Below, piece after piece: positions 13,978 to 52,310 of a DNA stretch of 64,000 nucleotides. Position numbers and translations under genes: made by a program. Each line of letters opens with the position of its first letter. Position 1 is the stretch's first letter. This stretch comes from Micromonospora echinofusca (GTDB lineage Bacteria > Actinomycetota > Actinomycetes > Mycobacteriales > Micromonosporaceae), in contig NZ_LT607733.1 of the NCBI RefSeq assembly GCF_900091445.1, forward strand, positions 2,930,501 through 2,994,500, given 5' to 3'. A model generated the notes under the pieces. It did no database searches and was not told the origin of the DNA. It saw only the letters and a program-made list of their open reading frames with translations.

Positions 13978-13979
13978 CG

Positions 13980-18413: not shown

Positions 18414-18427
18414 GCGGGCCGGCGGTC

Positions 18428-18461: not shown

Positions 18462-18488
18462 CGCTCGACGGCTACCTGCCGGGCCGGG

Positions 18489-33273: not shown

Positions 33274-33689
33274 GTGTGATCGGGGGCATCGTGGGGGCGG
33301 AATCGTGGCGGGGGTGGGGTCGTTACACCCGGCGTACGACCGAGCAGGAAAGGCCACGCCGCCCCGACGGGATGGTGGGCCGGGGCCCGGAATGATGGCG
33401 GGCCGGTGGTCGTTACACATGGTCCGGCCGGCGTGAGGGCAACCCCCGCCCTACGCAGTCGACGGGAGGGCCCCCAGCCCCGCGAAACAGCCCCGGCCCT
33501 TCCGACCCGCACAGCTCGGACATTCGGCCGACACGGCTGATCTGATCATCCTTCCGTGCGACGACCGGAGATCCCTCCGGTTGCGCTGGAGATTTCCCCT
33601 TGAGTTTCCTGGGCGCCGGACGGTGCTTGCATCCGCGTAGCCGAATCCCCCTTCGGTGCGGGTGCCAACCCCCGAATGGAGCGTTTCTG
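33274..33689 (+). promoter_or_regulatory. Duplicated promoter/leader block B before paralogue 3
   Basis: A 416-bp non-coding block homologous to 22104-22623. It has TCGTTACAC at 33320 and 33410, a hairpin at 33501-33520 (TCCGA/TCGGA), GGTGC-TT-GCATC near 33622, and a hairpin at 33641-33656 (CCGAA, loop TCCCCC, TTCGG). It lacks most of the GC-rich insert of copy A. The terminal segment GCCGAATCCCCCTTCGGTGC followed by GGGTGCCAACC resembles the 5' half of the ydaO riboswitch, but it ends only about 35 bases before the ATG. Confidence 0.55.
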
Positions 33690-34289
33690 ATGAACACGTT
33701 CATCCGTAACAGCGTTCTCGGTATCGCCGGTCTGGCCTTCGCCGGTGGTGTGGCCGCCGGTCCGATGACCGACACCGCCCACACCAGCGCCCCGACCGTG
33801 GACACCACGGCCATCGCCGTCGCCGCCGTGCAGGCTGACAAGCCGGACATGGGCAAGCTGGTGCCGCATGGTGTGCAGGGTGCGCAGTCGCGCATCGACC
33901 TGTCCGACGAGCAGGTCGGCAACGTGAAGGCGATCATCGCGGCGACGAAGAAGGCCGGCATGGACGAGCGCGCGGCGGTGGTGTCGATCGCGACGGCGTT
34001 GCAGGAGTCGAAGTTGGAGAACCTGGGTCACCTGGGTGACCGCAACGACCATGATTCGCAGGGTCTGTTCCAGCAGCGTCCGTCCAGTGGTTGGGGCACG
34101 GTGGAGCAGATCACCGACCCGGAGTACTCGACGACGGCGTTCCTGAAGGGTCTGAAGCAGGTCGACGGGTGGCAGGACATGCCGCTGACCGAGGCGGCGC
34201 AGACGGTGCAGGTGTCGGCGTACCCGGACCACTACGCCCAGTGGGAGCAGCAGGCCGCCGACCTGGTCGCCGAGCACTGGAACAGCTGA
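33690..34289 (+). CDS. Secreted lysozyme/transglycosylase-like protein, paralogue 3
   Basis: A 199-residue protein almost identical to paralogue 2, with the same export segment and lysozyme-like domain (ATALQESKLENLGHLG, DSQGLFQQRPSSGWG). It differs by an extra Ala in the linker and Gln in place of Met near the C terminus (WEQQAADL). The nucleotide identity, including synonymous positions, is very high from the KPDMGKLVPHG region onward, so the duplication is recent or kept uniform by gene conversion. Likely a secreted peptidoglycan-active enzyme. Confidence 0.7.
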   Translation: MNTFIRNSVLGIAGLAFAGGVAAGPMTDTAHTSAPTVDTTAIAVAAVQADKPDMGKLVPHGVQGAQSRIDLSDEQVGNVKAIIAATKKAGMDERAAVVSIATALQESKLENLGHLGDRNDHDSQGLFQQRPSSGWGTVEQITDPEYSTTAFLKGLKQVDGWQDMPLTEAAQTVQVSAYPDHYAQWEQQAADLVAEHWNS

Positions 34290-34360: not shown

Positions 34361-34600
34361 CGGCACATCCACCGCAGGTGCACCTTGGCGGGCCCTGGCA
34401 CATCGCGCGCGGGTGTGGCGGGGCGCGTCGGCGCGTCCTCGTGGAAGGTCTACTGTCCGTGGAGCGACAGTTACTTGTGATCACCTTCATGCTTGTGGTG
34501 ATCTCAGCGCGATGACGTGAGTGAATCGCGGTGGGGGTCGATGTGAACTGTGGCCGCACGTCCGGTTGCCGTTGTCCGTTGCGTCTCGGCATCTGATCTG
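34361..34600. other. AT-richer gap before the GTPase cluster
   Basis: This stretch has no gene I can support. It includes a locally AT-richer patch around 34450-34550 (ACAGTTACTTGTGATCACC) that probably holds the promoter of the cluster. No clear -35/-10 pair was identified. A GTG at 34550 is in frame with the next gene and could extend it by 17 codons. Confidence 0.4.
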
Positions 34601-36106
34601 ATGGCGTTCGACGCCGAGCGCTACGACCGCGAGGTCATCAAGCCACTGCGGGGCAGACACGGACGGCTACCCGCTGGCGACCTCGCCGCCCGCTACGCGG
34701 TGCAGCCCGAGTGGAGCCCGCAACAGCTTGTCGCCCACCTCGCGGAACTACGCGGGTTCTGGCGCGAACGGGCCACCGGCCCGGACAGCCGGGCCGAGGT
34801 CTGCCGGCTGCTGATCTCGGCGGACGACAAGCTCCGGCGCGAGACCGGCGACCTGATGAACGATCCCACCTGGTGGCGGGAGCAGGCGGGCGTGACCGGG
34901 GACTCGCCGCGGAGCGTGCCGGCCACCCCCGCACCGCAACAGGAGGAGCCCGTCCAGCCCGCCCGGTCGGCCGGGCCGCCCACCAGCGACTGGCGTGTCT
35001 GGTCCTGGCGGAGAGAGGCGCACGACTTCATCCAGGCCCGGCTCGACACCCCGATCGGCGGTGACCGTAGGCGGCAGCCCGCCGGCGGCGTCGACGATCG
35101 GCGGCACGACCGGGTGGGCGAGGCGGACGGCGGCGCGCCCGCCCAGCGCCGCCCCGGCCGGGCCGCGCAACCGGGGATCGCCGTCGGACAGGCGGACCTC
35201 ACCGTCGGGGTGCTCGGCGGGTCGGGCGACCGGTGCCGGGTGCGGCTGTCGTGGCCGGCCGCGGGCGGCGATCGGGTACGGATCCGCTGGGCGGCGACGC
35301 CTCCGCCATGGCGGGCCGGGGCCGTCCTGCCCGTCTCCGCGCTGTCCGCCTTCGGCGCCGAGGTGGTTGGCGTACGGCAGGAACGCGACGGCGAGGTCAG
35401 CGTCGTGGCCGAGGTCCCGGTCGGCTACCACCTCTATGTGCCGTTCCTGGTCGAGGGCGACCAGGCCACCGTGGGGCGCCTGGTCGCCCTCGGCGTGGCC
35501 GAACCGGTGCGGCGACTGCGGGCCGAGCGCCGGGGCGACGACGCGGTCTTGTCGTGGATCTGGCCGGCGGGGGCGCGGCTGGCGCTGGTGGAGTGGACCT
35601 CGCCGACGGGCACCGAACGCGGCCAGGTGAGCCGTGCCGGCTACGCCAGTGCCAACGGCTTCCGCATCCCCGCCGCTGCGGACCCGTGCGTCGTACGAGT
35701 CGCGATCCTCGCCTCCGTCGTCGCCGACGAGGTGCGCTCACCGGTCCGTGAGGTGGCACTGCCGCCCCGGCCGGTGCGTGTCTCGTACACCCTGGCCCGG
35801 CACTGGCGCTGGCATCTCGGTCGCCGGGAGATCAGTGTCCGCCTGCGGGCGGCGACCGACGTCACGGACCTCGTCGTCACGGTGGTGCTCGGCGCGGAGC
35901 CCACGATGCCGCCCTCGCCCGTGGCCGGCACCGTCCTCGCCGAGGTCGTTGGCGTCGAGCTGCACCGAGAGCAGACCAGGGAACTCACCGTCGTGGTGCC
36001 CGAGCTGCCTCGGCTTCACCACCCCTACTGGATCCGGTGTTTCGTGCGTGGCGCCGTGCCGATCGCGGTTTCCGTTCCTCCCGTCGAGTCGATGAGGGTG
36101 TCGTAA
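34601..36106 (+). CDS. First protein of the GTPase/GAP1 cluster, unknown N-terminal helical domain plus beta-rich region
   Basis: About 501 residues. The first 95 residues are helical (FDAERYDREVIKPLRGRHG, then RAEVCRLLISADDKLRRETG) and look like a discrete adaptor domain. A long disordered, Pro/Arg-rich linker follows, then beta-rich segments resembling Fn3-type or other sandwich folds (RAERRGDDAVLSWIWPAG). There are no catalytic motifs. The start is uncertain: ATG 34601 gives a compact domain start, GTG 34550 adds 17 residues. Its stop TAA directly abuts the GTG of the next gene, so it is the first gene of a five-gene operon with two GTPases and a GAP1 protein. An adaptor or recognition role is inference. 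Confidence 0.6.
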   Translation: MAFDAERYDREVIKPLRGRHGRLPAGDLAARYAVQPEWSPQQLVAHLAELRGFWRERATGPDSRAEVCRLLISADDKLRRETGDLMNDPTWWREQAGVTGDSPRSVPATPAPQQEEPVQPARSAGPPTSDWRVWSWRREAHDFIQARLDTPIGGDRRRQPAGGVDDRRHDRVGEADGGAPAQRRPGRAAQPGIAVGQADLTVGVLGGSGDRCRVRLSWPAAGGDRVRIRWAATPPPWRAGAVLPVSALSAFGAEVVGVRQERDGEVSVVAEVPVGYHLYVPFLVEGDQATVGRLVALGVAEPVRRLRAERRGDDAVLSWIWPAGARLALVEWTSPTGTERGQVSRAGYASANGFRIPAAADPCVVRVAILASVVADEVRSPVREVALPPRPVRVSYTLARHWRWHLGRREISVRLRAATDVTDLVVTVVLGAEPTMPPSPVAGTVLAEVVGVELHREQTRELTVVVPELPRLHHPYWIRCFVRGAVPIAVSVPPVESMRVS

Positions 36107-37312
36107 GTGGCCGAGGTGGCGTGTCCGTTCTGCTATCAGCGCATCGACGGGTCGACGCTGTGGTTCCAGTGTCTGGGCAAGGGTGACGCCGACCACCGGG
36201 GGTGTGAGCCGGGCCCCGACGCCACCCGCCGCAACATGACCGGGTTCACGGAGATCATGCGACCCGTCTTCCCGCCGCCCCGTCACCAGCGGCTGCGGCC
36301 GGTGCGGGTGGCGTGGTGCCCGAACTGCGGTGGCAGGACGGGCATCCGCGCCTGCCCCTCCTGCCACACCCCGGTGCCACCGAACTTCGGGGAGACGGCC
36401 AGCCCGATGATCGCCATGTTCGGCGGCAAGGGCACCGGCAAGACGGTCTACCTGACTGTCCTCGCCAACGAGCTGCGTTCCTCGGACCTGCGCCGCAGGT
36501 TCGCCGCCGACATCCGGATGACCGGGGACGGGCAGGGCGGTTTCAAGTCCCCGCTGGAGTGGCTCGAACAGAACGTGGACCGGATGTTCACCGAGCACAA
36601 GCTCTTCGAGGCCACCGCCGCAGCGGTGAACGGCCGGCAGAACCCCCTGGTCTTCGAGTGGCGGGGTGAGCATCGACGATGGGGCCGGCCCCCGGTCTAC
36701 CGCACCAGCTACCTGTCCTTCCACGACACGGCGGGCGAGGACGTCGGGACCCTCAGCGGCGCCAACGACCTGGCGTACGTCGGCGCCGCGGACGGCCTGA
36801 TCCTGCTGCTCGACCCGTTCATGCTGCCCGGGGCCCGCGAGAAACTCCGGCTTCCGCCGTCGGCGATCCGGTCGACGGAGGACACCATCGCGGTGGTCGA
36901 CCGGCTGACCCAGAGCCTGCGCGCCAGCAACGGGGTGCGTGGCAGCGAGCGGATCAGCAAACCGGTGGCCGTCGCGTTCGCCAAGATGGACGCGTTCTAC
37001 GAGGAGCTGGGGCCGGAGCACCCGTTGCGCCAGGAACCCCCGCGAGGGCCGGCGTACGACGAACAGCTGGGCCGGGCCACCCACGAGCAGGTCGCCGCGC
37101 TGCTGCGGGGCTGGCAGGGCGACGACATCGAGCAGCACCTGCGGATGAACTACAAGACCTTCCGCTACTTCTTCGTCTCGGCACTCGGTGCCGAGCCCGA
37201 CTACGACAACGCCCTGGTGGAGGAGCGCGGGGTGCGTCCGTACCGCGTCGACGAGCCGCTGCTCTGGCTGCTCAGCCTGCCCCGCTTCGGCGTCGTACCC
37301 CGGCAGGGCTGA
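36107..37312 (+). CDS. Zinc-ribbon P-loop GTPase (DO-GTPase / TRAFAC-type), first of two
   Basis: A 401-residue protein. Two Cys clusters (CPFC...C near the N terminus, then WCPNCGGRTGIRACPSC at 70-86) form zinc ribbons. The P-loop FGGKGTGKT is at 105-113, the G3-like site is FHDTAGED, and AFAKMDAF is a G4-like site (KxD). This order suits the GTPase class predicted in NTP-dependent conflict systems. There are no membrane segments. The GTG at 36107 abuts the previous stop, and the stop abuts the ATG of the GAP1-like gene. It is expected to switch on GTP binding with GAP1 as partner; the effector is unknown. Confidence 0.75.
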   Translation: MAEVACPFCYQRIDGSTLWFQCLGKGDADHRGCEPGPDATRRNMTGFTEIMRPVFPPPRHQRLRPVRVAWCPNCGGRTGIRACPSCHTPVPPNFGETASPMIAMFGGKGTGKTVYLTVLANELRSSDLRRRFAADIRMTGDGQGGFKSPLEWLEQNVDRMFTEHKLFEATAAAVNGRQNPLVFEWRGEHRRWGRPPVYRTSYLSFHDTAGEDVGTLSGANDLAYVGAADGLILLLDPFMLPGAREKLRLPPSAIRSTEDTIAVVDRLTQSLRASNGVRGSERISKPVAVAFAKMDAFYEELGPEHPLRQEPPRGPAYDEQLGRATHEQVAALLRGWQGDDIEQHLRMNYKTFRYFFVSALGAEPDYDNALVEERGVRPYRVDEPLLWLLSLPRFGVVPRQG

Positions 37313-39706
37313 ATGACCGGGCGGTTCGAGAGCCTCATCTACACCGACTGCCGCCAGGGCCAGGGGCTGCGCGGCACGCCGGGGCTGCAGTTCCAGGCCC
37401 GTTCCGCGGGCGCGGACCGCAGCGCCGAGGCAGTCGTGCAGCGCAATCTGCTCTACGAACCCCCACCTCGGTGGATGCGGGAGCGTCGCCCGGTGAGCGA
37501 GTACCCGGTGTCGTTCGCCCACGTCTACGACGGGCTGTTCGCCACGGCCTCCGGGGTCTACCTGGGCCGGGAGAGCGTGGGCGGTCGGGAGGGCAACCAG
37601 CTCACCCACGCCATCGTGACCGACGACCCCGCCGCGTACGGGCTGGTGCGCCCGGCGCAGCTCTTCGGGGCGCCGTTCTGGACCGTCGAGCCGGCGCCCG
37701 ACACGCGGTGCCCGCGGTTGGAGCCGGGCTGGCAGCCGGGTTCGTTCGGCGCGGCGGAGGCCCGGGCGTTCGTGCACGCCGCCTCCGACGGTGCCGACCT
37801 GCTGACGGCGCTGCTGTCGACGTTGCGCCCGCCAGCGGACGAGCCGAGCCGCCGGGTGCTCTTCGTCGCCCGCGAGCCCGCGGAGGTGCTGCGCTGGGTG
37901 ACTGCGGCGACGCTGCTGTTGCCGCAGCGCGAGGCCCTGCGGATCGGGTTCAAGGTCTTCACCCTCAACCCCGCGTACGCGCCCCAGCGGATCCTCGCCG
38001 TGCACCCCGACTGGGGTGGCGCCGGCGCGACCCTCGACAACGACCAGGGCTATGTGGTGTTCGACCTGGTCCGGCACGTTTGGAGCCGGGTGGTGGAGAC
38101 CCGGGCGGCGCGGCGGTGGGCCGAGCTGTTCCTCGCCGAGGACCCGCTGGACGTGGTGGACGCGGTGGAGGTCGCCGCCGCGTCCGGCGTGGACGGCGAG
38201 GGATCGGCCGACGTGGCCCTCGCCGCCGTCCTGCGGCGTCTCCCCCCGCGGGAGCAGGTGGCCGGGCTGGTGCGCTGGCTGAGGAAGGGACCGCCACCGC
38301 TGGTACGGCGCTACGGCGCAGGCATCGTCGACCTGCTCGTGGAGGCCGCGCCGCGGTGGCCCGTCGACGTCCTGCGCGGCCTCGACGACGTCAGCCGGGC
38401 GGCCACCTTCCCGCACCGGGGCGCGACCGTGCGCCTGGCGCTGATCGACGCGGAACTGCGGGAGGCGTTGGCCTCGGGCACTGTCCACGAGCGGGCCGCG
38501 CCGTCCATCGACGGGTGGACGCGGGCGGACGAGGCGAGGGCGCTCGGCCCGATCAGCGAGGCGCTACGCGCGGCCGAGCCGCGCCGATTCGAGGCGCTGC
38601 TCCGGTTGTGCGGGCGATTCGGGCTCAAGCCGCCGCTCGGCGGGTTGCAGCCGGGCCTGGAGCGGTTCGTCCTCGACTGGGCCGACCATCCTGACCGGGC
38701 GTACCGGACCGAGGCGTGGGCCTGCGCCGAGGGCGTCGAGCGGCTGCTGCGCCGGGAACTCGGCCAGCGCCTCGCCGCCGAACCGGACATCGCCTACGAG
38801 CTCGGCGACCAGTGGTGGGACGTGCTGCTGCGGGAGCCGATGCGGCTCGACGAGCCGTTGGACGCGGCGGTGGTGGAGGCCGCCCTGCGTCACCTGCCGC
38901 CGGTGCAGCAGCTGGACCTGATCGAGCAGTGCCTCCGCACCGCCGTGGACGCCGATCGGCCCGCCGCGCTGGTGAACCGTACCGCCGCCGTCATCTGGAC
39001 GCACCGCCCGGTGGACCTGGCCGAGGCGCACCTGCTGCGGCGGCTGCTGCCCCGCAACGCGCCTCTGGACCCCCGGATCTTCGCCGAGCTGGGGGCGGTG
39101 CTCGTGGGGTACCCGCCGCATTCGGAGTACCTGGAGGCGGCGCTGGTGCTGATGGCGCACGGCCTGTGGTCACCGCCGCCGGAGGTGGCCCGCGCCATCC
39201 ACGGTCACCGTGCGCTGACCGTGGCGCTCGAGCAGTTGGCGTCCCCTCGGCCCGACATCGACGAGCTGACCCTGGCGCTGCGCCACGTGCCGGCGCGGCT
39301 CGTGGCCGCCCGGGTGCGGGAGTTGTGTGACGCGCTGGCGGCAGCGCCGGCGGCCGCGGCCTTCGCCGTGCTCGTCCACGCGCCGCAGCTCACCGAGCCC
39401 TGCTCCCGGAAGATCCGCGGTGAGCTGATGGGCAACTCGAACCCGGCGCACGTCGCCCTCGCCTTCGTGCTGGTGCACATCGAACGGCAGTCGGCGACCA
39501 TGGCCGCGATGGTCCAGCCGGGCACCCACGCGGACCTCGACCGGATGGTGCGTACCGCAGTGATCCGCTGTTCGCAGAAGCGGCTCGACGACATGACGGC
39601 GCAGGTGGAGGCAATGGGACCGATGTGGCTGGCGCGGTGGCGGACCCTGGTGCGCGACAACCGTCGCGGCCTGCTGCGCCGCCTGCGACCCGGCGGACGG
39701 GGGTGA
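37313..39706 (+). CDS. GAP1-type GTPase-associated protein
   Basis: A 797-residue protein beginning FESLIYTDCRQGQGLRGTPG, the N-terminal signature I associate with GTPase-associated protein 1 (GAP1-N). A middle domain (RVLFVAREPAEVLRWVTAAT, FKVFTLNPAYAPQRI) and a long alpha-helical C-terminal half follow. There is no Walker motif or signal peptide. Its ATG abuts the stop of the first GTPase gene and its stop lies three bases before the second GTPase gene, so it is flanked by both. In the published computational descriptions such proteins accompany these GTPases, but no activity is established. It may be the target or regulator of the two switches. Confidence 0.7.
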   Translation: MTGRFESLIYTDCRQGQGLRGTPGLQFQARSAGADRSAEAVVQRNLLYEPPPRWMRERRPVSEYPVSFAHVYDGLFATASGVYLGRESVGGREGNQLTHAIVTDDPAAYGLVRPAQLFGAPFWTVEPAPDTRCPRLEPGWQPGSFGAAEARAFVHAASDGADLLTALLSTLRPPADEPSRRVLFVAREPAEVLRWVTAATLLLPQREALRIGFKVFTLNPAYAPQRILAVHPDWGGAGATLDNDQGYVVFDLVRHVWSRVVETRAARRWAELFLAEDPLDVVDAVEVAAASGVDGEGSADVALAAVLRRLPPREQVAGLVRWLRKGPPPLVRRYGAGIVDLLVEAAPRWPVDVLRGLDDVSRAATFPHRGATVRLALIDAELREALASGTVHERAAPSIDGWTRADEARALGPISEALRAAEPRRFEALLRLCGRFGLKPPLGGLQPGLERFVLDWADHPDRAYRTEAWACAEGVERLLRRELGQRLAAEPDIAYELGDQWWDVLLREPMRLDEPLDAAVVEAALRHLPPVQQLDLIEQCLRTAVDADRPAALVNRTAAVIWTHRPVDLAEAHLLRRLLPRNAPLDPRIFAELGAVLVGYPPHSEYLEAALVLMAHGLWSPPPEVARAIHGHRALTVALEQLASPRPDIDELTLALRHVPARLVAARVRELCDALAAAPAAAAFAVLVHAPQLTEPCSRKIRGELMGNSNPAHVALAFVLVHIERQSATMAAMVQPGTHADLDRMVRTAVIRCSQKRLDDMTAQVEAMGPMWLARWRTLVRDNRRGLLRRLRPGGRG

Positions 39707-39709
39707 CCG

Positions 39710-41308
39710 GTGTCCGCCCCGGCCGTTGTCGTACTGGTGGTGCTCGGCTGCCTCGTGTCGATCGCGTACATCCTGGCCGCGGTGACGGTCGCGCCGGTCG
39801 TCGTCTACTGCCTCCTGGCGGGCCTGCTGGCCGGTGCCGTCCTCGGGTTGGCCGAGGCGACGCGGGTGCTCGGCGCTCTGGTGGACCCCCCGCGGGTGCG
39901 CACGCCGCATGACGAGTTCCGCGCCCGACCGGCTGGCCCGCTGCGGTCGTACCGGCGCGACTACGCCTGGCCCCACTACGCCGTGCGGCAGGCCGGCTAC
40001 GACCTGCGGCACGTCGTCGAGCGCTGCTATGAGCGCGTCATCGGCTGGTGGCGGGCCGGCTGGCGGGCCCTGCCCCGGCTGCCTCGCTACCACGTGCGGG
40101 CGCTCGAAGCGCTCGACGGCGTCGCCGAGACGGAGACCAACCCCAGCCGGGCATGGTCGGTGGCGCTGGCCTGGCCGTTGCTCGCCGTGCCCTGCGCGGC
40201 CCTCGTCGGGGTCACCGTGGGGACGCTGGCCGTGTTGGTGCTGCTGGCCGTGGTCGTCGCCGTGGTGACCGCGACGTCCTGGCTCCTCGGTGCGGCGGCG
40301 GCCGGAGCGCTGCGGGCCGCCGACTGGCGGTGGCGTGCCGCCTGGCGGACGGATACCTGCTGCCCCCGGTGCTACTTCCTGGTGGAGCTGCCGGTGTTCG
40401 TCTGTCCGGGCGGCCACGCCGACCTGGCGCCGGCCCCGCCCGGGTCGTGGCGGCACCGGCTGCTACGGCCCGACAGCCAGGGCCTGTGGCGGCGCCGGTG
40501 CGGCTGCGGGGTGTCCCTGCCGGCTCGACAGTCGTCGGCGGGAGCGCGGCTGAGCGCGAGGTGCCCCAAGTGCGACAGCCCGCTCGCCGCCGGTACCGGC
40601 CGGGCCACGGAGATCCGGGTCGCGGTGTTCGGGGCCCCCGACGCCGGCAAGACGACGCTCGTCGACGCCGTGGTGGACCGGCTGTCCGTGCGCTTCCCGC
40701 CGGACAGGTGCGCGGTCGACCGGCCCGTTCCCGGCGGCCGGGACAGCACCCGGGTGGTCGGCGTCGCCCTGCAGGCACAGCGTGCGCCCCAGCGGGTGCA
40801 GGTGTTCGACGCCCCCGGGCGCAGCCTCGTGGACCGCGAGGTCTGCGCGTCGTACGGCTTCCTGGACGAGACCCGCAACTTCATGTTCGTCCTGGACCCG
40901 CTGTCGCTGCCAGCGCTACGTCGGCGGGTGGCGGAGGCGCCTGCCCACCTCGTCCCCGCCGTCCGGGTCGCCCGGCACGACGTGGCGGACTCGTACGAGG
41001 CCGTGGTCGTCGGCCTGCGGCACCGGGGCGTCGCCACGGAACGGTGCCGACTGGCCTTCGTGGTGTCCAAAGCGGACCTGCTCGGGCTGCTCCCCGGTGT
41101 CGTCGCGCCGGCGGACGACTCGGCGGCCGTGCGACGTTGGTTGGCCGGCCACGGCCTCGACCACCTCCTGACGGCCGTCGGGCGGGACTTCGCCGAGGTG
41201 CGCTTCTTCCTGCACGGCACGGTTGACCCTCCGCCGTCGGATCCGTTGCTGTGGTTGCTGCGCGGTGAGCGCGTCCTGCGTCGGGAGGTGGCCGGTGCGC
41301 TCCGCTGA
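39710..41308 (+). CDS. Membrane-anchored zinc-ribbon GTPase, second of two
   Basis: A 532-residue protein. Membrane segments lie at about 4-50 (VVVLVVLGCLVSIAYILAA) and 152-195, then zinc-ribbon cysteines (CCPRC, CGCG, CPKC at about 217-288). The GTPase core follows: P-loop FGAPDAGKTT at 307-316, G3 VFDAPGRS and G4 FVVSKADLLG. It therefore couples a membrane anchor to a P-loop switch. The TM-ribbon-GTPase order differs from the soluble first GTPase. The last 14 bases overlap the next small membrane-protein gene. It probably holds the complex at the membrane. Confidence 0.75.
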   Translation: MSAPAVVVLVVLGCLVSIAYILAAVTVAPVVVYCLLAGLLAGAVLGLAEATRVLGALVDPPRVRTPHDEFRARPAGPLRSYRRDYAWPHYAVRQAGYDLRHVVERCYERVIGWWRAGWRALPRLPRYHVRALEALDGVAETETNPSRAWSVALAWPLLAVPCAALVGVTVGTLAVLVLLAVVVAVVTATSWLLGAAAAGALRAADWRWRAAWRTDTCCPRCYFLVELPVFVCPGGHADLAPAPPGSWRHRLLRPDSQGLWRRRCGCGVSLPARQSSAGARLSARCPKCDSPLAAGTGRATEIRVAVFGAPDAGKTTLVDAVVDRLSVRFPPDRCAVDRPVPGGRDSTRVVGVALQAQRAPQRVQVFDAPGRSLVDREVCASYGFLDETRNFMFVLDPLSLPALRRRVAEAPAHLVPAVRVARHDVADSYEAVVVGLRHRGVATERCRLAFVVSKADLLGLLPGVVAPADDSAAVRRWLAGHGLDHLLTAVGRDFAEVRFFLHGTVDPPPSDPLLWLLRGERVLRREVAGALR

Positions 41309-41477
41309 CCTGCCCGACTCCTACCGTTCGTTCCGGCTGGTCGTCCTCGCCTTGACCCTCCTGGTCATGGCGGGCCTGGTGGCGTGGGCGCTGCGCGACG
41401 GCGTGCCGCAGGCGGTGGCCGGTTGGGCCGCGGAGGTGCGGCGCGACTCCTGGAGCGTGTGGACGCTCTTCGGCTAG
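41295..41477 (+). CDS. Small single-pass membrane protein ending the GTPase operon
   Basis: A 60-residue protein with one membrane helix (FRLVVLALTLLVMAGLVAWA). GTG at 41295 lies inside the end of the GTPase gene and has GGAGG six bases upstream, which fixes the start. Its TAG stop shares the tetranucleotide CTAG with the stop of the minus-strand gene 41474-45685. It is probably a membrane partner of the second GTPase. No family recognised. Confidence 0.65.
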   Translation: MRSADLPDSYRSFRLVVLALTLLVMAGLVAWALRDGVPQAVAGWAAEVRRDSWSVWTLFG

Positions 41478-44400
41478 TTCTCGGTTCGCCGGGCCGCGCC
41501 GCCCTCGGTGAGCCGTCGTGCCTGCACCCGGTGCCCGTTCGCGGCCGTCCCGTCGCCGGCGCGTTCCCACAGCCCGGCGAGGTCCGCGTGGGTGCGCGCC
41601 AACCGGGCGCGTACGGTGGCGTCGCCGGTGTCGTCGCGGAACACCCGGCTCAGCACCGCGCAGCTCTCGGTGAGCGCCTCGATCGCGGCGCCGACGTCGT
41701 CGGTCTCGGCGAGCAGCCCGGCCTGGTGCCCCAGCACGGCGGCCAGGTCGGCGGCGTACCGGGCCGGATCGGCGGTGGCGAGCTGCCGGTGCAGGACGAC
41801 CACCTCACGCAGCGCCGCGGCGGCCTCGGCGTGCCGTTCGAGGTCGTACAGCTGCACCGCCTGGCAGTGCAGCGCCGTCGCCAGACCGGCGAGGGCGTCG
41901 AGGCCACTCTCGGCCGCCAGTACGCGGTGCAGGCGTACCGCCTCGTCGCCGACCGACAGGGCGAGCTGGGGCGATCCGACCTCGTCCAGGTCCATGGCCT
42001 GCCGCAGCAGCCCCCGGGCCAACGCCGGTACGTGCGCCGTGTCCGCGGCGGCGAGCCGGCGGCGCAGGCGGACGCTCTCGTCCTGCGCCGCCAGGGCGGC
42101 GGTGCCGTGGCGTTCGCGGCGGTGCAGGGTGGCCAGCGTGTCGAGCGCCTCGGTCAGCCGGGCGAGGTCGGGAAGCCCGCCGTGGGTGCCGGCGCCCGCC
42201 GGGCCGGCGCTGCCGGCGTCGGCCAGGGTGCGGGCGTGAGCCACAGCCGTCGTCGCGGCGGCCAGTCCCTCGCCGCAGCGGCCCAGCTCGCCCAGGAGCC
42301 GCGCCCGCCGGATCTCGGCGTCGCAGAGCGGCGCGAGACGGCCGCCGGGCACACTGGCGTGAAGCTGCTCGTGGTACGCCACGGCCCGGTTCGTCGCGCT
42401 GAGCGCCTGCACGGTCAGGTCGGCCCGGTGCAGGGCGACGGCGTGTGCGTCCAGGGCCGACGTCAGGCGTTCCAGGGCGTTGCGCGTGGCCGGGGCGCCG
42501 CTACGGTCGAGTGCCCGTACCCGCAGGTCGATCTCCTCGGCCAGCGCGGCGAGCACGTCACCGTCCGACCCGCCGTCGGCCAGCCGCCGCCGGTGCTGGG
42601 TCAGCGCCTCCGCCAGCCACGGCAGGTACTGGTCGGCCTCCCCGAGCCGGCGGATGCCCTCGACGAGCCGGGCCGAGAGGGCCACCGGCTGGTCGGCGAA
42701 GAGGACCCCGGGGTCGGCGAGCCCGCTGGCGACGGCCCGGAGCATCGGCAGGGCGGCCCGTGGGTCCTGCACCAGCAGGCGCAGGCGCTCCACCAGGGCG
42801 GGTGGCAGGATCGACGTGCGGGAGCGCGTCTGCTGCAGCAGGGTGAGCAGCAGCGCCGGCTGGTCCTGGACGACCTGCCAGAGCGGGGCGGCCAGGGCGG
42901 GATGCCGGTGGCAGGCCGGCCCGAGCACCGTCACGGCCCGTCGCGCCTGCTCGGGGGTGCAGTGCGGCAGGACGTCCGTGACCAGCGCCGGGTTGTCGAG
43001 CGCGGCGGCGGTGCCGAGGGCGAGCCGAACCTCGTCCGGCTCGACGGGTCCCCAGTACGCACCGTCGTCGCCCGGATAGAGCTCGTGCAGCCAGTTCGCC
43101 AGGCGGTGCAGGATGGTCCGGTCGGGTGCCTCCCGGTGGCGGATCCGGCGCACCACGTCCTGGGCATCGGCGGCGGTGCGTGCGCCGTACAGGGCGGCCG
43201 CCGCCAGGTACTCGTCGAGGTGGCCCGCCTGGGCGTACGAGATCCGCGCGGACACTGCGGTGGCCTCCCCGTACCGGCGTTCCCGGGCGAGCAGCACCGC
43301 CACGACGTCCGGCACGGAGAAGGGCGGAGGCGGCCCCGGCGTGCCCCGCAGCAGGATCCGCAGCGCCGCCAGATGCAGCGCGACCGGCCTGGAGAACCGT
43401 TCGTGGCCGACATCGGGAAGGCGCGTCAACCGGGCGCGGTGCTGCCAGCGATCGTCGCCGGTGTCGGCGTCCAGCGCCGCGGCGATGCCGGCCAAGGCGT
43501 CGCGCAGCGCCTCCTGCCGCTCGCGTCCGGGCGGCCAGGGGGCCCGCAGCTGTTGGACGGTCGCCTTGCTGACCAGCCCCGCCGGGTCGGCGCGGCGCAG
43601 TTCCTGCCACCAATCGCCGGCGGAACGGGCGAGCAGGAGCAGGCGGCCCGGCGCGTCGCCGCGGGTGGCCCGGTCGAGCTCCTCCAGCACCTCGTCGGGT
43701 CGGGTCTCGGCGCGGTCGACCACGACCAGCCCGCCGTCGTCCGGCCCCGGGTCGAGGCCCGACTGCGGCGGCGCGCCCCGCCAGCGCGTACGACGCCCGG
43801 CCACCAGCTCGCGGGCCAGGCGCGTCTTGCCCTGGCCGGGACCGCCGACGAGCACCCGCACCGCTGCGCCCTTCGCCGCGCACCACCGTTCCAGCTCGGC
43901 CAGCTCCGCCGCGCGGCCGCTGAAGGGCACCACCCGGCGGTGCGGGGAGAACAGGTCGGGACCGCTGCCCGTGGGCGGGCCTGCCGTCTCGTCGCTCGGG
44001 GACCCGGCCCGGGGTTCGCGCACGAGGGGCGACGAGCCGTCCGGCGCAGCGGGAGAGGGACCGTCCGTTCCGGGGGGCGCGGGGTCGTCCGGCGGCGGCA
44101 CGTCGGCGGGCCCGGCCGCCACCGGTTCGACGTGCCGCGCCGGGCGGGCCGTGACCCGGTCCAGCCTGGCCCGCCCGATGGTGTTGATCACCGCGAAGGG
44201 CGTGTCGTCGGGTCCCAGCCCGGGCCGGCCGGGGCTCGGGGTCAGCGCCGTGAAGTGCTCGCGTGCGACACCCACCCGCGCCTGCACGGACCGGGACAGG
44301 TGCTCCAGCAGTTCCCCGGCCCGGACCAGGTCGGGGCGCGCCAGCGTGTCGAGCAGCAGCGGCTGGACCCCGTCGACGAACCGGTAGCGCCCGGCCCGGG

Positions 44401-45685
44401 CGTCGACCACCCTCAGCAGGCCGCTGAGCAGCACCTCCGCCAGCTGCGACGGCGGGGCCGGGCGGAACATCGCGTGCTGGATGTAGCGGATCACCGGCAG
44501 CACCGGCTCGGTCATCGCGACGTACCCGGCCAGCCGGAACGCCTCGGGGGACGCCGACGAGCGGAAGCGCCGGACCCGCTGGGCCGGGCTGGGCGCCGCA
44601 CCCTCGCGCCCGGGCGAGGTCCTCAGCCGGTCCCCGGTGACCACCGTGACCGCGCTGGTCACGGCGGGCGCGCCGGCGAGCAGCCGGGCCCAGCGGCCGA
44701 TCCAGCGCGGCGACACCTCCAACACCGGTACCACCGTGCCGCCCTGCACGCGCATGCCGTCGAAGGCGCTGAACCGCAGGTCGGTGTTCGGTGTGCCCGG
44801 TCTCGGCGCGCTGAGCAGTCCCGCCACCGTCCGCCCGCCGGTACGCGACCACATCCGCTCGGGCAGCGGCTGGAGGATGGACACCGGCCCGTGTCGTGCC
44901 CAGCGGCGCAGAAGGGCGCCGGCGGCGCCGGTGTGCCAGATCTGGTCGACGCAGTCGCTGACGATGATCACCACGCGGCGCCCGCTCGGGTCGATCAGTT
45001 CCGCCGGGCGTCGCGCCTCGCCCCGCCAGCTCGACAGGGCGGCGGTGCCGTCACCCGCGCCGCGGTGCAGCCGCCACCGGCTGACCTGCCGGAAGATGCC
45101 CGACGCGGCCAGTGTCTCGACGACGCCGGTCGCGAGGTCGCGCCACAGCGTCATCGACTCCGTCCGGTCCACCACCACGGCGACGTCCAGCCACCGTTCG
45201 AGCGAGGGTTTCGTCACCGCCGGCCACGGCCGGTCGACCAGCGTGTGTTCGGCGACGGTGCGTACCGTGGCGTCCTCGTCGAGGACATCGACCCGGGGGC
45301 AGGGCACCCGCCGCAGCAGCGGACGCAGCGCCCGCTGGAAGCCCAGCCGGTCGGGCAGCGCGGCCGAGCGGGGCACGGCCACCTCCGCCGCCGTCACCCT
45401 GCCCGGTTCGGCCGGCGGCACGTACAGGCTGGTGGGCGTCGGCGCGGACGCCGGCGGCGGCAGCGACTCGGCCGGGGGCTCGGGTGCGTCGGCGGGAGGT
45501 GGCCGGTCGGGCACCGGATGGCCGGCCGGTGCGGGCGCGGTGGGCGTCTGCGCGTCCGGCTGTGGTCGGGCGGTCGGGATGCGGGCCCGCAGGTGGTCGG
45601 CCAGCCAGAGCGCCTCCGCCAACTCCCGGGGCGTGGGGTCGCCACCGGCGGCCACGATCGCCGCGCGGAGCCGGTCAATCGTCAT
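41474..45685 (-). CDS. vWA/SAV_2336-type - STAND ATPase - TPR giant protein
   Basis: A 1403-residue protein. An N-terminal Pro-rich linker is followed by a vWA-like domain (LDVAVVVDRTESM at 166-178, a DxTxS MIDAS-like site; VVIIVSDCVDQIW about 238-250), a pattern I associate with SAV_2336 N-terminal-domain proteins. A winged or helical region follows, then a long disordered linker, then a STAND-type ATPase with P-loop GGPGQGKT at 614-621 and LVVVDRAE as Walker B-like. The C-terminal half is TPR-like helices. ATG at 45685 overlaps the MoxR stop by 11 bp. It is the large sensor/effector-like member of the minus-strand operon; ligand and output are unknown. Confidence 0.75.
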   Translation of the reverse strand: MTIDRLRAAIVAAGGDPTPRELAEALWLADHLRARIPTARPQPDAQTPTAPAPAGHPVPDRPPPADAPEPPAESLPPPASAPTPTSLYVPPAEPGRVTAAEVAVPRSAALPDRLGFQRALRPLLRRVPCPRVDVLDEDATVRTVAEHTLVDRPWPAVTKPSLERWLDVAVVVDRTESMTLWRDLATGVVETLAASGIFRQVSRWRLHRGAGDGTAALSSWRGEARRPAELIDPSGRRVVIIVSDCVDQIWHTGAAGALLRRWARHGPVSILQPLPERMWSRTGGRTVAGLLSAPRPGTPNTDLRFSAFDGMRVQGGTVVPVLEVSPRWIGRWARLLAGAPAVTSAVTVVTGDRLRTSPGREGAAPSPAQRVRRFRSSASPEAFRLAGYVAMTEPVLPVIRYIQHAMFRPAPPSQLAEVLLSGLLRVVDARAGRYRFVDGVQPLLLDTLARPDLVRAGELLEHLSRSVQARVGVAREHFTALTPSPGRPGLGPDDTPFAVINTIGRARLDRVTARPARHVEPVAAGPADVPPPDDPAPPGTDGPSPAAPDGSSPLVREPRAGSPSDETAGPPTGSGPDLFSPHRRVVPFSGRAAELAELERWCAAKGAAVRVLVGGPGQGKTRLARELVAGRRTRWRGAPPQSGLDPGPDDGGLVVVDRAETRPDEVLEELDRATRGDAPGRLLLLARSAGDWWQELRRADPAGLVSKATVQQLRAPWPPGRERQEALRDALAGIAAALDADTGDDRWQHRARLTRLPDVGHERFSRPVALHLAALRILLRGTPGPPPPFSVPDVVAVLLARERRYGEATAVSARISYAQAGHLDEYLAAAALYGARTAADAQDVVRRIRHREAPDRTILHRLANWLHELYPGDDGAYWGPVEPDEVRLALGTAAALDNPALVTDVLPHCTPEQARRAVTVLGPACHRHPALAAPLWQVVQDQPALLLTLLQQTRSRTSILPPALVERLRLLVQDPRAALPMLRAVASGLADPGVLFADQPVALSARLVEGIRRLGEADQYLPWLAEALTQHRRRLADGGSDGDVLAALAEEIDLRVRALDRSGAPATRNALERLTSALDAHAVALHRADLTVQALSATNRAVAYHEQLHASVPGGRLAPLCDAEIRRARLLGELGRCGEGLAAATTAVAHARTLADAGSAGPAGAGTHGGLPDLARLTEALDTLATLHRRERHGTAALAAQDESVRLRRRLAAADTAHVPALARGLLRQAMDLDEVGSPQLALSVGDEAVRLHRVLAAESGLDALAGLATALHCQAVQLYDLERHAEAAAALREVVVLHRQLATADPARYAADLAAVLGHQAGLLAETDDVGAAIEALTESCAVLSRVFRDDTGDATVRARLARTHADLAGLWERAGDGTAANGHRVQARRLTEGGAARRTEN

Positions 45686-46694
45686 CGGACTGGCGGGACA
45701 GGCTGGCCATCACCTTGTCGGCGAGTTGCAGCCGGTCGACGCCGCCGGACCGGCCGGCCTGGTCGGTCAGGTAGATGGCGTTGAGCAGTTGGTCGGTGGC
45801 GAGGTCGCGAGGTTCCCGGCGGGCGAGGAAGCTGTCGATCAGGTCGGTGCTGTCGTCGGCGAGGTCGTCGAGGTGCGCGCCGACGATGCGGGCCAGCTTG
45901 TCGCCGTCGGGTTGCAGCAGCGTGACCTGGACACACCGGCGCAGGAAGGCGGGCGGGAACTCCCGTTCGTCGTTGCTGGTCATGACGATGAGGGGGAACG
46001 CCCGGCAGCGCACCCGACCCGCGTGGATGGGGACCCGTTCGGTGCTGTCGGCGGCCATCACCAGCGCGTCGGGGGAGTGGTCCGCCTGCCGGACCAGCTC
46101 GGGGATCTCGTACGCGCCGTCCTCGAAGATCGTGAGCAGGTCGTTGGGCAGGTCGAGGTCACCCTTGTCGATCTCGTCGATCAACAGCACCCGGGGTTTC
46201 TCGGCGGGGAGCAGGGCGGTGCCGAGCGGGCCGAGGCGGATGAAGCGGCCGATGTCCTCGCCGTCCTCAGTCACCCCACCCCGGTTCCCGGCCGCCCCGC
46301 CCTGGTTGTTGTGGTAGAGCCGCGCCAGGGGGTCGTACTGGTAGAGGCCGTCCTTGACGGTGACCCGGCTGGTGATGTTCCACCTCAGCGGACGGCCGAG
46401 CCTGAGTTCGTGGGCTATCGCCGCCGCCAGGGTCGACTTGCCGGTGCCGGGTCGGCCGGTCACCAGCAGCGGACGTCGCAGGTAGAGGGCGGCGTTGACC
46501 AGCTCGACGGTGTCCTGGTCCGGCCGGTACCTCTCGCCCCGCCGCACGTCGGCGGCGGTCTCGGCGACCAGCGGTGCGGTGGGTGTGGCGGCCTCGTCGA
46601 ACGAGCGCCACGGCGGCGGCGCGGGCAGCCGTTCGATGCCGTCGTGCGGGCCGCCCGTCCCCTTGTAGATCCACCAGCCCGGCGTCTCGGACAC
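45675..46694 (-). CDS. MoxR-family AAA+ ATPase of the vWA-MoxR conflict-type operon
   Basis: A 339-residue AAA+ ATPase. Walker A GRPGTGKST is at 80-88, Walker B VLLIDEIDKGD at about 170, sensor 1-like IVMTSNDEREF, and arginine finger candidates in FLRRCVQ. This fits MoxR-type AAA_5 proteins, which remodel partners that carry vWA domains. GTG at 46694 is preceded by GGAG. The stop overlaps the start of the vWA-STAND gene. Together with the trypsin-VMAP gene it makes the vWA-MoxR-VMAP set known from computational work. Confidence 0.85.
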   Translation of the reverse strand: MSETPGWWIYKGTGGPHDGIERLPAPPPWRSFDEAATPTAPLVAETAADVRRGERYRPDQDTVELVNAALYLRRPLLVTGRPGTGKSTLAAAIAHELRLGRPLRWNITSRVTVKDGLYQYDPLARLYHNNQGGAAGNRGGVTEDGEDIGRFIRLGPLGTALLPAEKPRVLLIDEIDKGDLDLPNDLLTIFEDGAYEIPELVRQADHSPDALVMAADSTERVPIHAGRVRCRAFPLIVMTSNDEREFPPAFLRRCVQVTLLQPDGDKLARIVGAHLDDLADDSTDLIDSFLARREPRDLATDQLLNAIYLTDQAGRSGGVDRLQLADKVMASLSRQSDDD

Positions 46695-46703
46695 GTCCGC
46701 TCC

Positions 46704-48464
46704 TCACTTGGCGAAGCTCAACTGGACCGGCCGCCGCCGTGGGTCGTCCCACAGCAGGGTGACCTCCCGGCCGCAGTGGTCGTGCTCGTCGTCGACCGCA
46801 CCGGCCTCGACCCGCAGGTCACGGATGCGCAGCGGCAACTCGTCGCTGCGGATGTCGCCCAGCCGGGCCGCCATCGCGGTGCGGAACCGTACGCCGGCGC
46901 AGCCCCCGTGCCCCGTGGAGTGGTCGTGGCAGGCGGCACGTGGCCACAGCAACACCGGCAGCCCGCTGGCCACGGCCGAACTGATCCGCTCCGGCGTCGC
47001 CCAGGAGCCGGCCAGGCCGAGGACGCCCCGGCGCTCGCTCATGCGCAGCCACGCCTGGAACGACCCCAGCTTCCGCTCGGGCTCGGCGCAGTCGAGCCAC
47101 TCCAGCATCGCGTCGAGGCGCCGGGTGTCGGCCCGCAACCGTTCGGCCCGATCCTGGATCTTCCTCGGGTGCGGATGGTCGAACCAGTCCAGCGCGCGCA
47201 CCACGACGGGCCTGCTCCAGCCCAGGGGCACGTGCTCCAGGTCGTCGAGGGCACGCCAGTCGTCGACGGGCCAGGCGAGGTGCCCGAGGGGCAGTACGAA
47301 CTCCACCGTGATCGAGTCATAGGTCGCGTGGGGGATCGCCTGGTACGCGGCGGGCAGCGACCGCTCGACGGTGTCCTTGACCTCGTCCTCCGTGACGGTC
47401 TGCTCGAGGATTCGTTCGTCCATGCCACCGTCCGGGTCGGTGGCGGTCCAGATGGTGACGTGGTACGACCGGCGGACGCCCGCCGTCGGCGCGATGCGGA
47501 CGACCACCCATCCCGGCCGGGGGGCCGGGCCCGGCGCCGCGGCCGGGATGGGCGCGGCGCCCGCGCCCCAGCCGTGCTGGCCGACCCATTCGTGCAGGAG
47601 GGCCGCGCGTTGCGGTGACTCCTGGCCGATCCGGCGCAGCAGCGTGATCACGAGGTCGACGACCTCCTCGCGGGGAAACGTGGTGCCGACGGCGAGCCAC
47701 TCGACGGCGGCCAGCACGTTGCTCAGCACCGCGGGCGGCTGAGGGAAGAGCGGCCCACGCTGGCGCAGCACCTCCAGCAGCAGCCGGTGCGTCTCCGCGA
47801 GTTCCAGGCCGTGCAGGATCGCGTGCAACTCCCGGTACGCCTTCGCGCCGAACGGGCCGAGGCAGATGCGGTCGAGCAGCGGCGGCCAGTGCCGGCCGAT
47901 CTCGTCCAGCGGCAGCAGCATGCCGGTGCGCATCTCGGGGTCCCGGTCGGCGGCGGTCATCATGCCGACCACCTCGTCGGTGCCCTGCAGGTAGGCCGCC
48001 GAGCCGCTGTAGCCACGGTCCAGCCGTGGCCCTCTCGGCCCGATGGCGTCGGTCTGGCAGGTCCCGTTGGCCAGCCGGGCGCCCACTGCCGTGAAGTGGG
48101 CGATCTGGCCGGTGTCGCGGTAGCTGTCGGGGAAGCCGAGTGCGCTCAGTCGCTGTCCGGCGTAGATCTGCACCCCGTTCCACGGCGCGAGCCGGGCCGG
48201 TTCCAGGTCGACCGGGTCGGTCAGGCGGATCACCGCGATGTCGCCCTCGTCGGCCACGCCCCGAACCCAGGGCCCCCGGAACACCACCTCGCCCGGCAGC
48301 CCTCGCTTGTCGGCGAGCAGAAACGACACCGCCGCGTTCTTCGCGTCGCCCACCACGTGCGCACAGGTCAGCACGTGGTGGGCGTCGATCAGGAATCCGC
48401 TGCCACCGCGCCCGGACGCGTCGGTGACGTCGATGCGGGCGTGCCACCGCGGGCTCGCGCTCAC
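46704..48464 (-). CDS. Trypsin-like protease fused to a VMAP-type C-terminal region
   Basis: A 586-residue protein. The first 200 residues are a trypsin-fold protease with an intact triad: His36 in LTCAHVVG, Asp75 in EGDIAVIRL and Ser153 in DRGYSGSAAYL. There is no signal peptide, so the protease is intracellular. The rest is a helical linker plus a C-terminal domain (CAEPERKLGSFQAWLRMSER, GLPVLLWPRAACHDH) like VMAP, the vWA-MoxR-associated protein. GTG at 48464 overlaps the TRYPCO1 stop. The prediction is that proteolysis is switched by the MoxR/vWA partner; not tested. Confidence 0.75.
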   Translation of the reverse strand: MSASPRWHARIDVTDASGRGGSGFLIDAHHVLTCAHVVGDAKNAAVSFLLADKRGLPGEVVFRGPWVRGVADEGDIAVIRLTDPVDLEPARLAPWNGVQIYAGQRLSALGFPDSYRDTGQIAHFTAVGARLANGTCQTDAIGPRGPRLDRGYSGSAAYLQGTDEVVGMMTAADRDPEMRTGMLLPLDEIGRHWPPLLDRICLGPFGAKAYRELHAILHGLELAETHRLLLEVLRQRGPLFPQPPAVLSNVLAAVEWLAVGTTFPREEVVDLVITLLRRIGQESPQRAALLHEWVGQHGWGAGAAPIPAAAPGPAPRPGWVVVRIAPTAGVRRSYHVTIWTATDPDGGMDERILEQTVTEDEVKDTVERSLPAAYQAIPHATYDSITVEFVLPLGHLAWPVDDWRALDDLEHVPLGWSRPVVVRALDWFDHPHPRKIQDRAERLRADTRRLDAMLEWLDCAEPERKLGSFQAWLRMSERRGVLGLAGSWATPERISSAVASGLPVLLWPRAACHDHSTGHGGCAGVRFRTAMAARLGDIRSDELPLRIRDLRVEAGAVDDEHDHCGREVTLLWDDPRRRPVQLSFAK

Positions 48465-48802
48465 CGTTCGGCGACCTCGCCATCCTGGGTGCCGGACCAG
48501 GTGAGCTTGACGGTGAGGTGCGCGTCCACGCCGGTCTTGGCGATGACGGCGCCGGCCTGCGCGTTGACGTTGACCCCGAACTCGATTTCGATGTCGTTCG
48601 GCCGGTGGACGCTGTCGCGGAAGGTGGCCAGCGCCTTCTGCGCCGCCAGGTTGATCTCCCGCAGGCCGGACTCGAACCGCTTGCGCGCCTCGATCATCTC
48701 GTCGCCGAGCCCGGCCTCGCCGAAGCCGGCCTCCCGCCGGTCGACCTCGAAGACGACCTCGGCGCCGTCCTCCGTTCGGACGCGCATCAGCTCAGTTGCC
48801 AT
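48461..48802 (-). CDS. CU044_2847-family (TRYPCO1) trypsin-co-occurring protein
   Basis: A 113-residue protein. N-terminal MRVRTEDGAEVVFEVD leads into helices and a C-terminal beta segment (NDIEIEFGVNVNAQAGAVIA), a layout matching trypsin-co-occurring domain 1 proteins. The ATG at 48802 has GGGAAGGG upstream. The stop overlaps the trypsin-VMAP start (GTGA), as expected for a protein that binds and probably controls the protease. It is the first gene of the minus-strand operon. Confidence 0.75.
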   Translation of the reverse strand: MATELMRVRTEDGAEVVFEVDRREAGFGEAGLGDEMIEARKRFESGLREINLAAQKALATFRDSVHRPNDIEIEFGVNVNAQAGAVIAKTGVDAHLTVKLTWSGTQDGEVAER

Positions 48803-48961
48803 CGAAGCCCTTCCCGTCGGCCGAAGATCCTGCTGAGCATCGACCACCGTGGACCCCGCCGCTGTCGGCTCTCCGACTGAAAGGACCCTCGTTTTTTCCG
48901 TTGCCGCGTGCAGGCACCGGGCAGATCGGGGGCTCGGGTCGCGGGCGCGCGCGGGCTGCCC

Positions 48962-48967
48962 TAGTGT
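48962..48967 (+). promoter_or_regulatory. Possible -10 element of formate dehydrogenase operon
   Basis: TAGTGT, 43 bases before the ATG at 49011, resembles actinobacterial -10 hexamers. No clear -35. The gap 48803-49010 has no other gene. Confidence 0.35.
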
Positions 48968-49010
48968 TCGAGGGGTCGACGGTGTCAGGGCCGCGGGAGG
49001 GGGGTCGCGG

Positions 49011-52000: not shown

Positions 52001-52310
52001 CGGCCGGGTGATCCACCAGATGTGGCTGCCGTACCACTTCGGGTTCGAGGGCCTGGTGACCGGCGACTCGGCCAACGACCTGTTCGGGATCACCCTGGAC
52101 CCGAACGTGCTGATCCAGGAGAGCAAGATCGGTACCTGTGACGTGCGGCCGGGGCGGCGGCCCACCGGCCCGGCCCTGCTGGGCCTGGTGGCCGACTACC
52201 AGCGGCGGGCGGGCATCGTCCCCGGCCATCCGGCCCCGACGCTCACCCCGGGGGCGCTCGCCCCGCCGGCCGCCGCCGACGGTGCCGGGGAGGGCCGTGA
52301 TGCTTCCTGA
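49011..52310 (+). CDS. fdnG: Selenocysteine-containing formate dehydrogenase, alpha subunit
   Basis: An uninterrupted reading frame of 1099 residues if the UGA at 49578-49580 is read as selenocysteine (Sec190). The context, IENQARI-Sec-HSATVPG, is the conserved formate dehydrogenase active-site block. An N-terminal [4Fe-4S] site has Cys51, Cys54, Cys58 and Cys86 (CPYCAVGC, GRLCPKG). The remainder is a molybdopterin oxidoreductase plus dinucleotide-binding domain. There is no Tat signal (MGLRTFIQGWPVY), so it faces the cytoplasm. A SECIS hairpin follows the UGA. It oxidises formate to CO2, passing electrons to the beta subunit. E. coli FdnG is about 1015 residues; this one is somewhat longer. 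Confidence 0.92.
49578..49609 (+). promoter_or_regulatory. UGA codon and SECIS hairpin
   Basis: UGA at 49578-49580; 12 bases later a hairpin with stem GTCCCC/GGGGGC (49593-49598 and 49604-49609) and loop GGTCT. The loop matches the GGUCU of the E. coli fdhF SECIS element, bound by SelB, and the distance (11-12 bases) also matches. Confidence 0.9.

Follow-up and report, generated by a model that had tools for sequence, protein, structure and literature searches.

A probable heritable cassette in Micromonospora echinofusca joins a GAP1-N2/DO-GTPase operon to a VMAP–MoxR–vWA ternary operon

Two classes of predicted bacterial conflict system, the VMAP–MoxR–vWA ternary systems and the DO-GTPase–GAP1 systems, were both defined by Kaur et al. 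2020 (PMC7159879), who, in the parts of the paper available to us, treat MoxR–vWA and DO-GTPase–GAP1 as analogous, separate switches that do not swap their core pairs. Here we describe a 64,000-nucleotide stretch of the Micromonospora echinofusca genome (NZ_LT607733.1, positions 2,930,501 to 2,994,500; hereafter referred to as the window), in which a GAP1-N2/DO-GTPase operon (34601–41477, plus strand) converges on an operon encoding trypsin-VMAP, MoxR and vWA-STAND proteins together with Trypco1 (48802–41474, minus strand). These nine genes probably constitute one heritable cassette, namely a GAP1-N2/DO-GTPase system in which the HSP70–GrpE half has been replaced by a MoxR–vWA–VMAP(trypsin) ternary system. 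What is new is the hybrid, as both of its parts already appear in the accessible text of PMC7159879. The plus-strand genes of the GTPase/GAP1 operon are labelled A–E, and the minus-strand genes of the VMAP ternary operon and Trypco1 are labelled F–I.

Linkage of the two operons across genomes

Among 160 genomes of the genus, GAP1-N2 occurs in 9 and VMAP-C, over the profile cut-off, in 31, and the two lie within 10 kb of each other in 4, including the window. In a family sample of 354 genomes, for which profile counts comprise matches over the cut-off (the unlisted weakest VMAP-C matches all fall below it), we found 56 GAP1-N2 loci in 53 genomes and 143 VMAP-C loci in 98 genomes. Nine of the 56 GAP1-N2 loci are paired with a VMAP-C gene 7.2–10.6 kb away, all nine in convergent orientation; a tenth pair, 45 kb apart in genome G188, was left out of the count. 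These nine pairs, against 0.19 expected within 15 kb under uniform placement and a single genome size of 9.5 Mb, rule out chance adjacency, and the corresponding Poisson probability of 7e-13 is too strong, since the loci share descent. The carriers represent ten species under four genus codes (the window strain, Micromonospora sp. H61 and MA102, Paractinoplanes deccanensis, P. pyxinae, P. aksuensis, Actinoplanes rectilineatus, Phytohabitans flavus, G169 and G311), which also excludes an artefact of one strain; the original prediction had named co-occurrence by chance in this strain alone as one finding that would overturn it. We refer to the ten loci in which GAP1 adjoins VMAP ternary genes, the window included, as hybrid loci.

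The VMAP of the window carries a VMAP-M8 middle domain, which is found at 11 loci in 10 of the 354 genomes, and eight of these loci adjoin GAP1. GTPase1 and MoxR distances are correlated (r = 0.93, with none of 5,000 permutations as high), a figure from which species descent has not been removed. Between the Micromonospora carriers, A belongs to the less well conserved end of the cassette's components (56–58% identity, versus 77–87% for B); H, at 51%, falls below A in one of three comparisons.

In the four Micromonospora carriers, the nine genes lie between the same SLT-like gene (33600–34289 in the window; its profile match is below the cut-off) and a formate dehydrogenase gene. In 7 of 12 relatives examined, these two flanking genes are 0.3–0.8 kb apart and the boundary is empty, and the remaining five lack the SLT-like gene there and have 1.2–1.6 kb to the next known neighbour. 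A tree of a nearby 5′-nucleotidase gene (13 rows, comprising four carriers and nine others) scatters the carriers among the non-carriers and implies at least four changes between the two states, three of them forced by starred branches. Because the carriers are scattered and the boundary is empty, the block seems to have been gained or lost as a whole, more than once. A defence hotspot at the formate dehydrogenase boundary is unsupported, as none of the 12 relatives has another large insert there. The Actinoplanes, Phytohabitans and G311 loci lack the Micromonospora neighbours, and the pair thus resides at more than one site.

Chaperone genes, gene A and a vWA–GTPase fusion

We compared the hybrid loci with 30 other GAP1 loci, a selected subset of the 47 non-adjacent loci of the family; duplicates (L025, L026, L029, L030, L056, L057, L058, L060, L064, L069 and L075) were excluded from the trees and from the HSP70 count. 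HSP70 accompanies 27 of these 30 loci, the exceptions being L053 (a 4.4-kb contig), L054 and L073, and GrpE accompanies 25. By contrast, within the stretches examined, HSP70, GrpE, CHAT and the middle part of the long A forms had no match in the ten hybrid loci (including the whole 64-kb window) or in two related loci described below, L062 and L095. A Pfam scan of two HSP70-type loci, L038 and L045, detected HSP70 in each of them, and GrpE and CHAT in one or both. Gene A encodes 464–572 residues in hybrid loci, versus mostly 780–900 elsewhere (first-start frames), and an alignment of short and long forms revealed that a middle part of about 400 residues, present in the HSP70-linked forms, is missing from hybrid A. 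Since HSP70 and GrpE are common at the other loci and absent from the VMAP-linked ones, in which A is also shortened, the chaperone half of the GTPase system seems to have been exchanged for the ternary system. At L038 (M. haikouensis), CATRA and CHAT (caspase-like) genes flank the locus at 1838–3646 and 14260–17592.

In a careful GAP1 tree, from which L053, L068, L073 and L074 were left out, the core eight hybrid rows group with support of 98/97, and a quick GAP1 tree gives an SH-like approximate likelihood ratio test (SH-aLRT) value of 91 for the inclusion of L040 and L059 (the VMAP gene of L059 is incomplete, being cut at the end of the stretch examined). The GTPase1 tree unites the ten hybrids with the fusion protein described below (90/87). 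As the hybrid rows nest within the HSP70 type in both the GAP1 and the GTPase1 trees, rooted on farther GAP1 loci, the hybrid would most simply be the derived state.

A relative, Actinoplanes sp. LDG1-06 (G220, locus L062), carries Trypco1, trypsin-VMAP-M8 and MoxR genes followed by a single gene (11386–14148 of the locus) for a 920-residue fusion protein, P0133, in which a SAV_2336/vWA region precedes zinc ribbons and a GTPase that shares 48% identity with B. The GTPase part falls short of E 0.01 against the Pfam DO-GTPase2 model, and in the search of the 354 genomes this genome had no GAP1-N2 match over the cut-off. In the MoxR tree (27 rows; 8 of 20 VMAP loci, L079–L084, L086 and L087, are absent, having no match to the window MoxR at 1e-6), the MoxR of the fusion locus lies inside a 12-row clade (100/98) that comprises the ten hybrids together with L062 and L095. 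The fused GTPase groups with the GTPases of the Actinoplanes hybrids (100/99), and both halves of the fusion therefore derive from the hybrid lineage. P0133 retains the P-loop and KMD motifs, whereas its switch II reads HGLGD in place of DTAGE; because switch II is altered while the other two motifs are kept, the fused GTPase may bind GTP without normal cycling. The fusion suggests that the GTPase contacts the vWA protein, and does not indicate the direction of signalling. Together with the convergent adjacency in ten species and the presence or absence of the block at one site, it supports reading the two operons as a single unit. In the same locus, genes for an X-Pro peptidase-like protein and an NPP1-domain protein lie 3′ of the fusion.

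Known systems, proposed mechanism and alternatives

The minus-strand operon resembles the VMAP–MoxR–vWA ternary system, as the available text of PMC7159879 describes it, in gene order, in the trypsin domain on VMAP with Trypco1, in its MoxR motifs and in the variable vWA C terminus; it differs in being tied to a convergent DO-GTPase/GAP1 operon and, once, fused to a GTPase. The systems linked to ternary systems in that text concern peptide processing, diversity-generating retroelements (DGRs) and DUF397, with no GTPase system among them. The plus-strand operon matches the HSP70/GrpE theme of GAP1-N2 systems, in the same text, in having an A-type protein, a zinc-ribbon DO-GTPase, GAP1-N2/M/C and a membrane DO-GTPase in the same order, and departs from it in the VMAP ternary genes, the missing HSP70, GrpE and CHAT matches and the shorter A. 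It shares GAP1-N2 with DO-GTPases with the tubulin theme of actinobacteria; the same portions of the paper report that tubulin-type GAP1-N2 systems and VMAP systems are mutually exclusive there, whereas GAP1-N2 and VMAP are joined here. The likeness to AVAST type 1 is confined to a weak trypsin-domain similarity to Avs1b (21.2 bits, cut-off 1500), and the cassette is not a member. In the literature covered, which leaves aside subscription papers, preprints and supplements (including the tables of Kaur et al. 2020) and includes some sources in part, we found no report of the hybrid or of experiments on these proteins.

Family knowledge allows a working scheme, in which the cassette perhaps senses and answers infection. 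Protein A, which is fast-evolving and of putative FNIII type, would sense a trigger located at the membrane or close to it, perhaps together with the middle part of VMAP. GAP1 would fix the state of both DO-GTPases, so that the GTPases and GAP1 together serve as a threshold switch, and the GTPase module would act on the vWA protein. MoxR would then remodel the vWA/VMAP complex and unleash the trypsin domain, which would be held with Trypco1; cleavage by this domain would free or activate the STAND-TPR part, and the oligomerization of that part would lead to cell arrest or death. MoxR–vWA would thereby play for the GTPase–GAP1 core the role that DnaK–GrpE plays in its relatives.

A broader reading, which we put forward tentatively and which falls just short of being probable, is that two predicted immune switches have merged: GTPase–GAP1 would have swapped DnaK–GrpE for a MoxR–vWA–VMAP protease machine, yielding a three-stage relay of GTPase, AAA+ and protease/STAND components with the GTPase docked on the vWA protein, an arrangement suggested by the LDG1-06 fusion. 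If so, chaperone classes would be interchangeable parts in bacterial immunity. The position of the ternary system where the chaperone of the GTPase system was, along with the fusion, offers a handle on which protein touches which, bears on whether the GTPase core needs some nucleoside triphosphate-driven chaperone, and makes what was predicted from sequence accessible to straightforward interaction and deletion tests.

Several observations weigh against a single cassette. At one locus (L095, genome G184), which is syntenic with that of P. deccanensis on both sides, the A–B–C operon is missing: 74 bp stand in place of about 5.2 kb, while Trypco1, VMAP, MoxR and the vWA-STAND protein are retained, and the ternary half can thus live alone. 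The tie between the operons is therefore strong and not obligate, and the original interpretation of the block is supported in part. Three of the 11 VMAP-M8 loci are not next to GAP1, and in a sample of 236 genomes of the class, none of 22 other GAP1-N2 loci is adjacent to VMAP (assessed by eye), so the hybrid looks narrow. The GTPase1 group that includes the fusion has support of only 90/87 and is not starred, and GAP1 monophyly of all ten hybrids, L040 and L059 included, is poorly supported by the careful tree (51/62). When proteins of 506–1610 residues were searched with the GTPase part, within the best 8,000 word-sharing candidates, the vWA–GTPase fusion was the single case of its kind, and its switch II lacks the DTAGE motif. 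One other match in that search, P0134, is a GTPase fused to a long A-type protein.

Some of these observations would also follow if two independent conflict systems were merely neighbours in a defence island and were co-inherited by hitchhiking alone. The halves do occur separately (134 of the 143 VMAP loci and 47 of the 56 GAP1 loci are non-adjacent), the syntenic L095 locus lacks the GTPase operon, and generic clustering of conflict operons is frequent according to the accessible text of PMC7159879. Hitchhiking nevertheless seems improbable, as it leaves unexplained why the same convergent arrangement recurs in ten species at more than one site, why no other large insert occupies the boundary in the 12 relatives, why HSP70, GrpE and the A middle are absent from all ten VMAP-linked loci, and why a fusion joins the two lineages. 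A role outside defence, in regulating development or envelope stress in filamentous actinobacteria, has a similarly small chance of being correct. It would be in keeping with the membrane proteins D (a GTPase) and E, with a DO-GTPase described next to psp genes (PMC11237479, in the part available) and with the PADLOC-DB 2.0 search, which gave no strong match to a known anti-phage system and only weak P-loop or trypsin similarities (best 35.6 bits). The adjacent pair, present in 4 of 160 genus genomes and patchy among close relatives, shows a pattern unlike that of a developmental gene.

The remaining alternatives concern the direction of signalling within a linked system. The VMAP ternary genes could be the system proper, driving the DO-GTPase/GAP1 operon as an effector or output module; we regard this as possible but unlikely. 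In the available parts of PMC7159879, effectors of VMAP systems are fused C-terminally to vWA, exactly where the L062 GTPase lies, and the fused GTPase with its altered switch II resembles inactive effector domains in the same text; the persistence of the ternary half alone at L095 fits as well. This arrangement is harder to reconcile with the STAND-TPR-like part that the window vWA protein already bears, and with the putative sensor and membrane GTPase that the GTPase operon retains for itself. TPR repeats and STAND NTPases often serve as sensors, and it is also conceivable, if quite unlikely, that the trigger is detected by the vWA-STAND-TPR protein and the signal passed via MoxR to the VMAP trypsin domain as the effector. 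Such a scheme has been proposed for DGR-linked ternary systems in the accessible part of PMC10907252, and identity between the Micromonospora carriers is lower for F than for G (60–65% versus 78–81%); by itself, this scheme leaves the link to the GTPase operon unexplained.

Gene features and surroundings

The original prediction listed nine genes, all nine of which exist as reading frames at their places, and Pfam and NCBIfam profiles uphold its assignments to GAP1, DO-GTPase, VMAP, Trypco1 and SAV_2336 families. Gene A (34601–36106, plus strand) encodes 501 residues, a short form of the putative FNIII-type GTPase-associated protein and a candidate sensor or adaptor; a GTG start at 34550 is possible, and the majority of homologues open with MAFDAERYD or similar. 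Neither A nor E matched any Pfam, NCBIfam or PADLOC family, and FN3 had no match in A, nor in its homologues P0123, P0130 and P0134 at E values up to 1; we infer the FNIII type of A from its operon position (PMC7159879) and its homology to the long A forms. B (36107–37312, plus strand) is the double zinc-ribbon DO-GTPase (GTPase1) with a DZR match, and D (39710–41308, plus strand) is the membrane zinc-ribbon DO-GTPase (GTPase2). The prediction of two zinc-ribbon GTPases is confirmed by profile for D (PF19993, DO-GTPase2, 30.9 bits, cut-off 27); B scores 21.6 bits, below the same cut-off, although it has the zinc ribbons and its P-loop, DTAGE and KMD motifs are retained in all ten hybrid loci by alignment. 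C (37313–39706, plus strand) is a GAP1 protein whose N2, M and C domains (PF20013, PF20014 and PF20052) score far over the cut-offs. In a sequence search against solved structures, GAP1, A and B gave nothing credible; GAP1 returned five chance-level rows (best E 0.07).

The hydrophobic stretches of D (residues 1–54 and 148–201, by hydropathy) are N-terminal, and D has no C-terminal transmembrane segment. That segment is perhaps supplied by E (41295–41477, plus strand), a 60-residue, one-helix membrane protein kept in all four Micromonospora carriers, which may be the detached C-terminal transmembrane segment of D. D is unmatched in the four Actinoplanes/Paractinoplanes hybrid loci. In the HSP70-type locus L045, a small membrane open reading frame (13962–14198), E-like by eye, lies 3′ of GTPase2.

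On the minus strand, F (41474–45685) is the vWA component, consisting of a SAV_2336 N-terminal region (SAV_2336_NTERM, NF041121, 387.6 bits), a vWA domain with the metal-ion-dependent adhesion site (MIDAS) motif D-x-T-x-S, a STAND-like NTPase with the P-loop VGGPGQGKT and a TPR-like C-terminal part. The STAND-like region has ATPase_2 and AAA_22 matches, both below the cut-off, and the TPR-like part, which had no profile match in the Pfam/NCBIfam scan, was assigned by reading the sequence. G (45675–46694) is a MoxR-type AAA+ ATPase (AAA_5), whose N-terminal motifs WWIYKG and PPWRSF conform to the WxhapG / PsWRxa definition of the ternary systems and whose Walker A and B motifs are intact in all 12 aligned rows, the window among them. 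H (46704–48464) is the VMAP protein, with an N-terminal Trypsin_2 domain (PF13365), a VMAP-M8 middle (PF19969) and VMAP-C (PF20028); its trypsin triad is His36/Asp75/Ser153, and the predicted active-site serine is thus the correct residue. I (48461–48802) is Trypco1 (trypsin-co-occurring domain 1; PF19493, 81.2 bits). H–G–F reproduces the ternary order VMAP–MoxR–vWA (5′ to 3′).

The stop codons of E and F overlap by 4 nucleotides (nt) in the palindrome CTAG (41474–41477), and this overlap occurs in all four Micromonospora carriers; in the Actinoplanes/Paractinoplanes hybrids (n = 4), the ends of GAP1 and F lie no more than about 15 nt apart. The junction had been described as free of terminators, and a scan indeed found none (0 sites, versus 2.2 in shuffles), a result of little weight in such GC-rich DNA. 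Upstream of A, an element with repeated TTGTGAT-like half-sites (34474–34506, plus strand), largely kept in the alignment of the four Micromonospora carriers, could act as a promoter or operator for the GTPase operon. It has no second copy in the window, and since the pattern was derived from that site, its self-match is no evidence; a promoter element common to both operons was rejected, as the element preceding A was not seen before Trypco1.

In the Phytohabitans flavus locus (L040), GAP1 (10001–12414) and vWA (15134–19253) are both broken into two frames, and the operons lie about 1.15 kb apart, possibly through decay of the locus; F of L040, like that of L035, aligns in pieces. Beyond the block, the window carries a selenoprotein formate dehydrogenase with tRNA-Sec and SelB downstream (49011–52310, 54257–54352 and 55679–57442). 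The formate dehydrogenase frame at 48849–49580 stops at a TGA within NQARI-U-HSATVPG and is continued by the frame extending to 52310.

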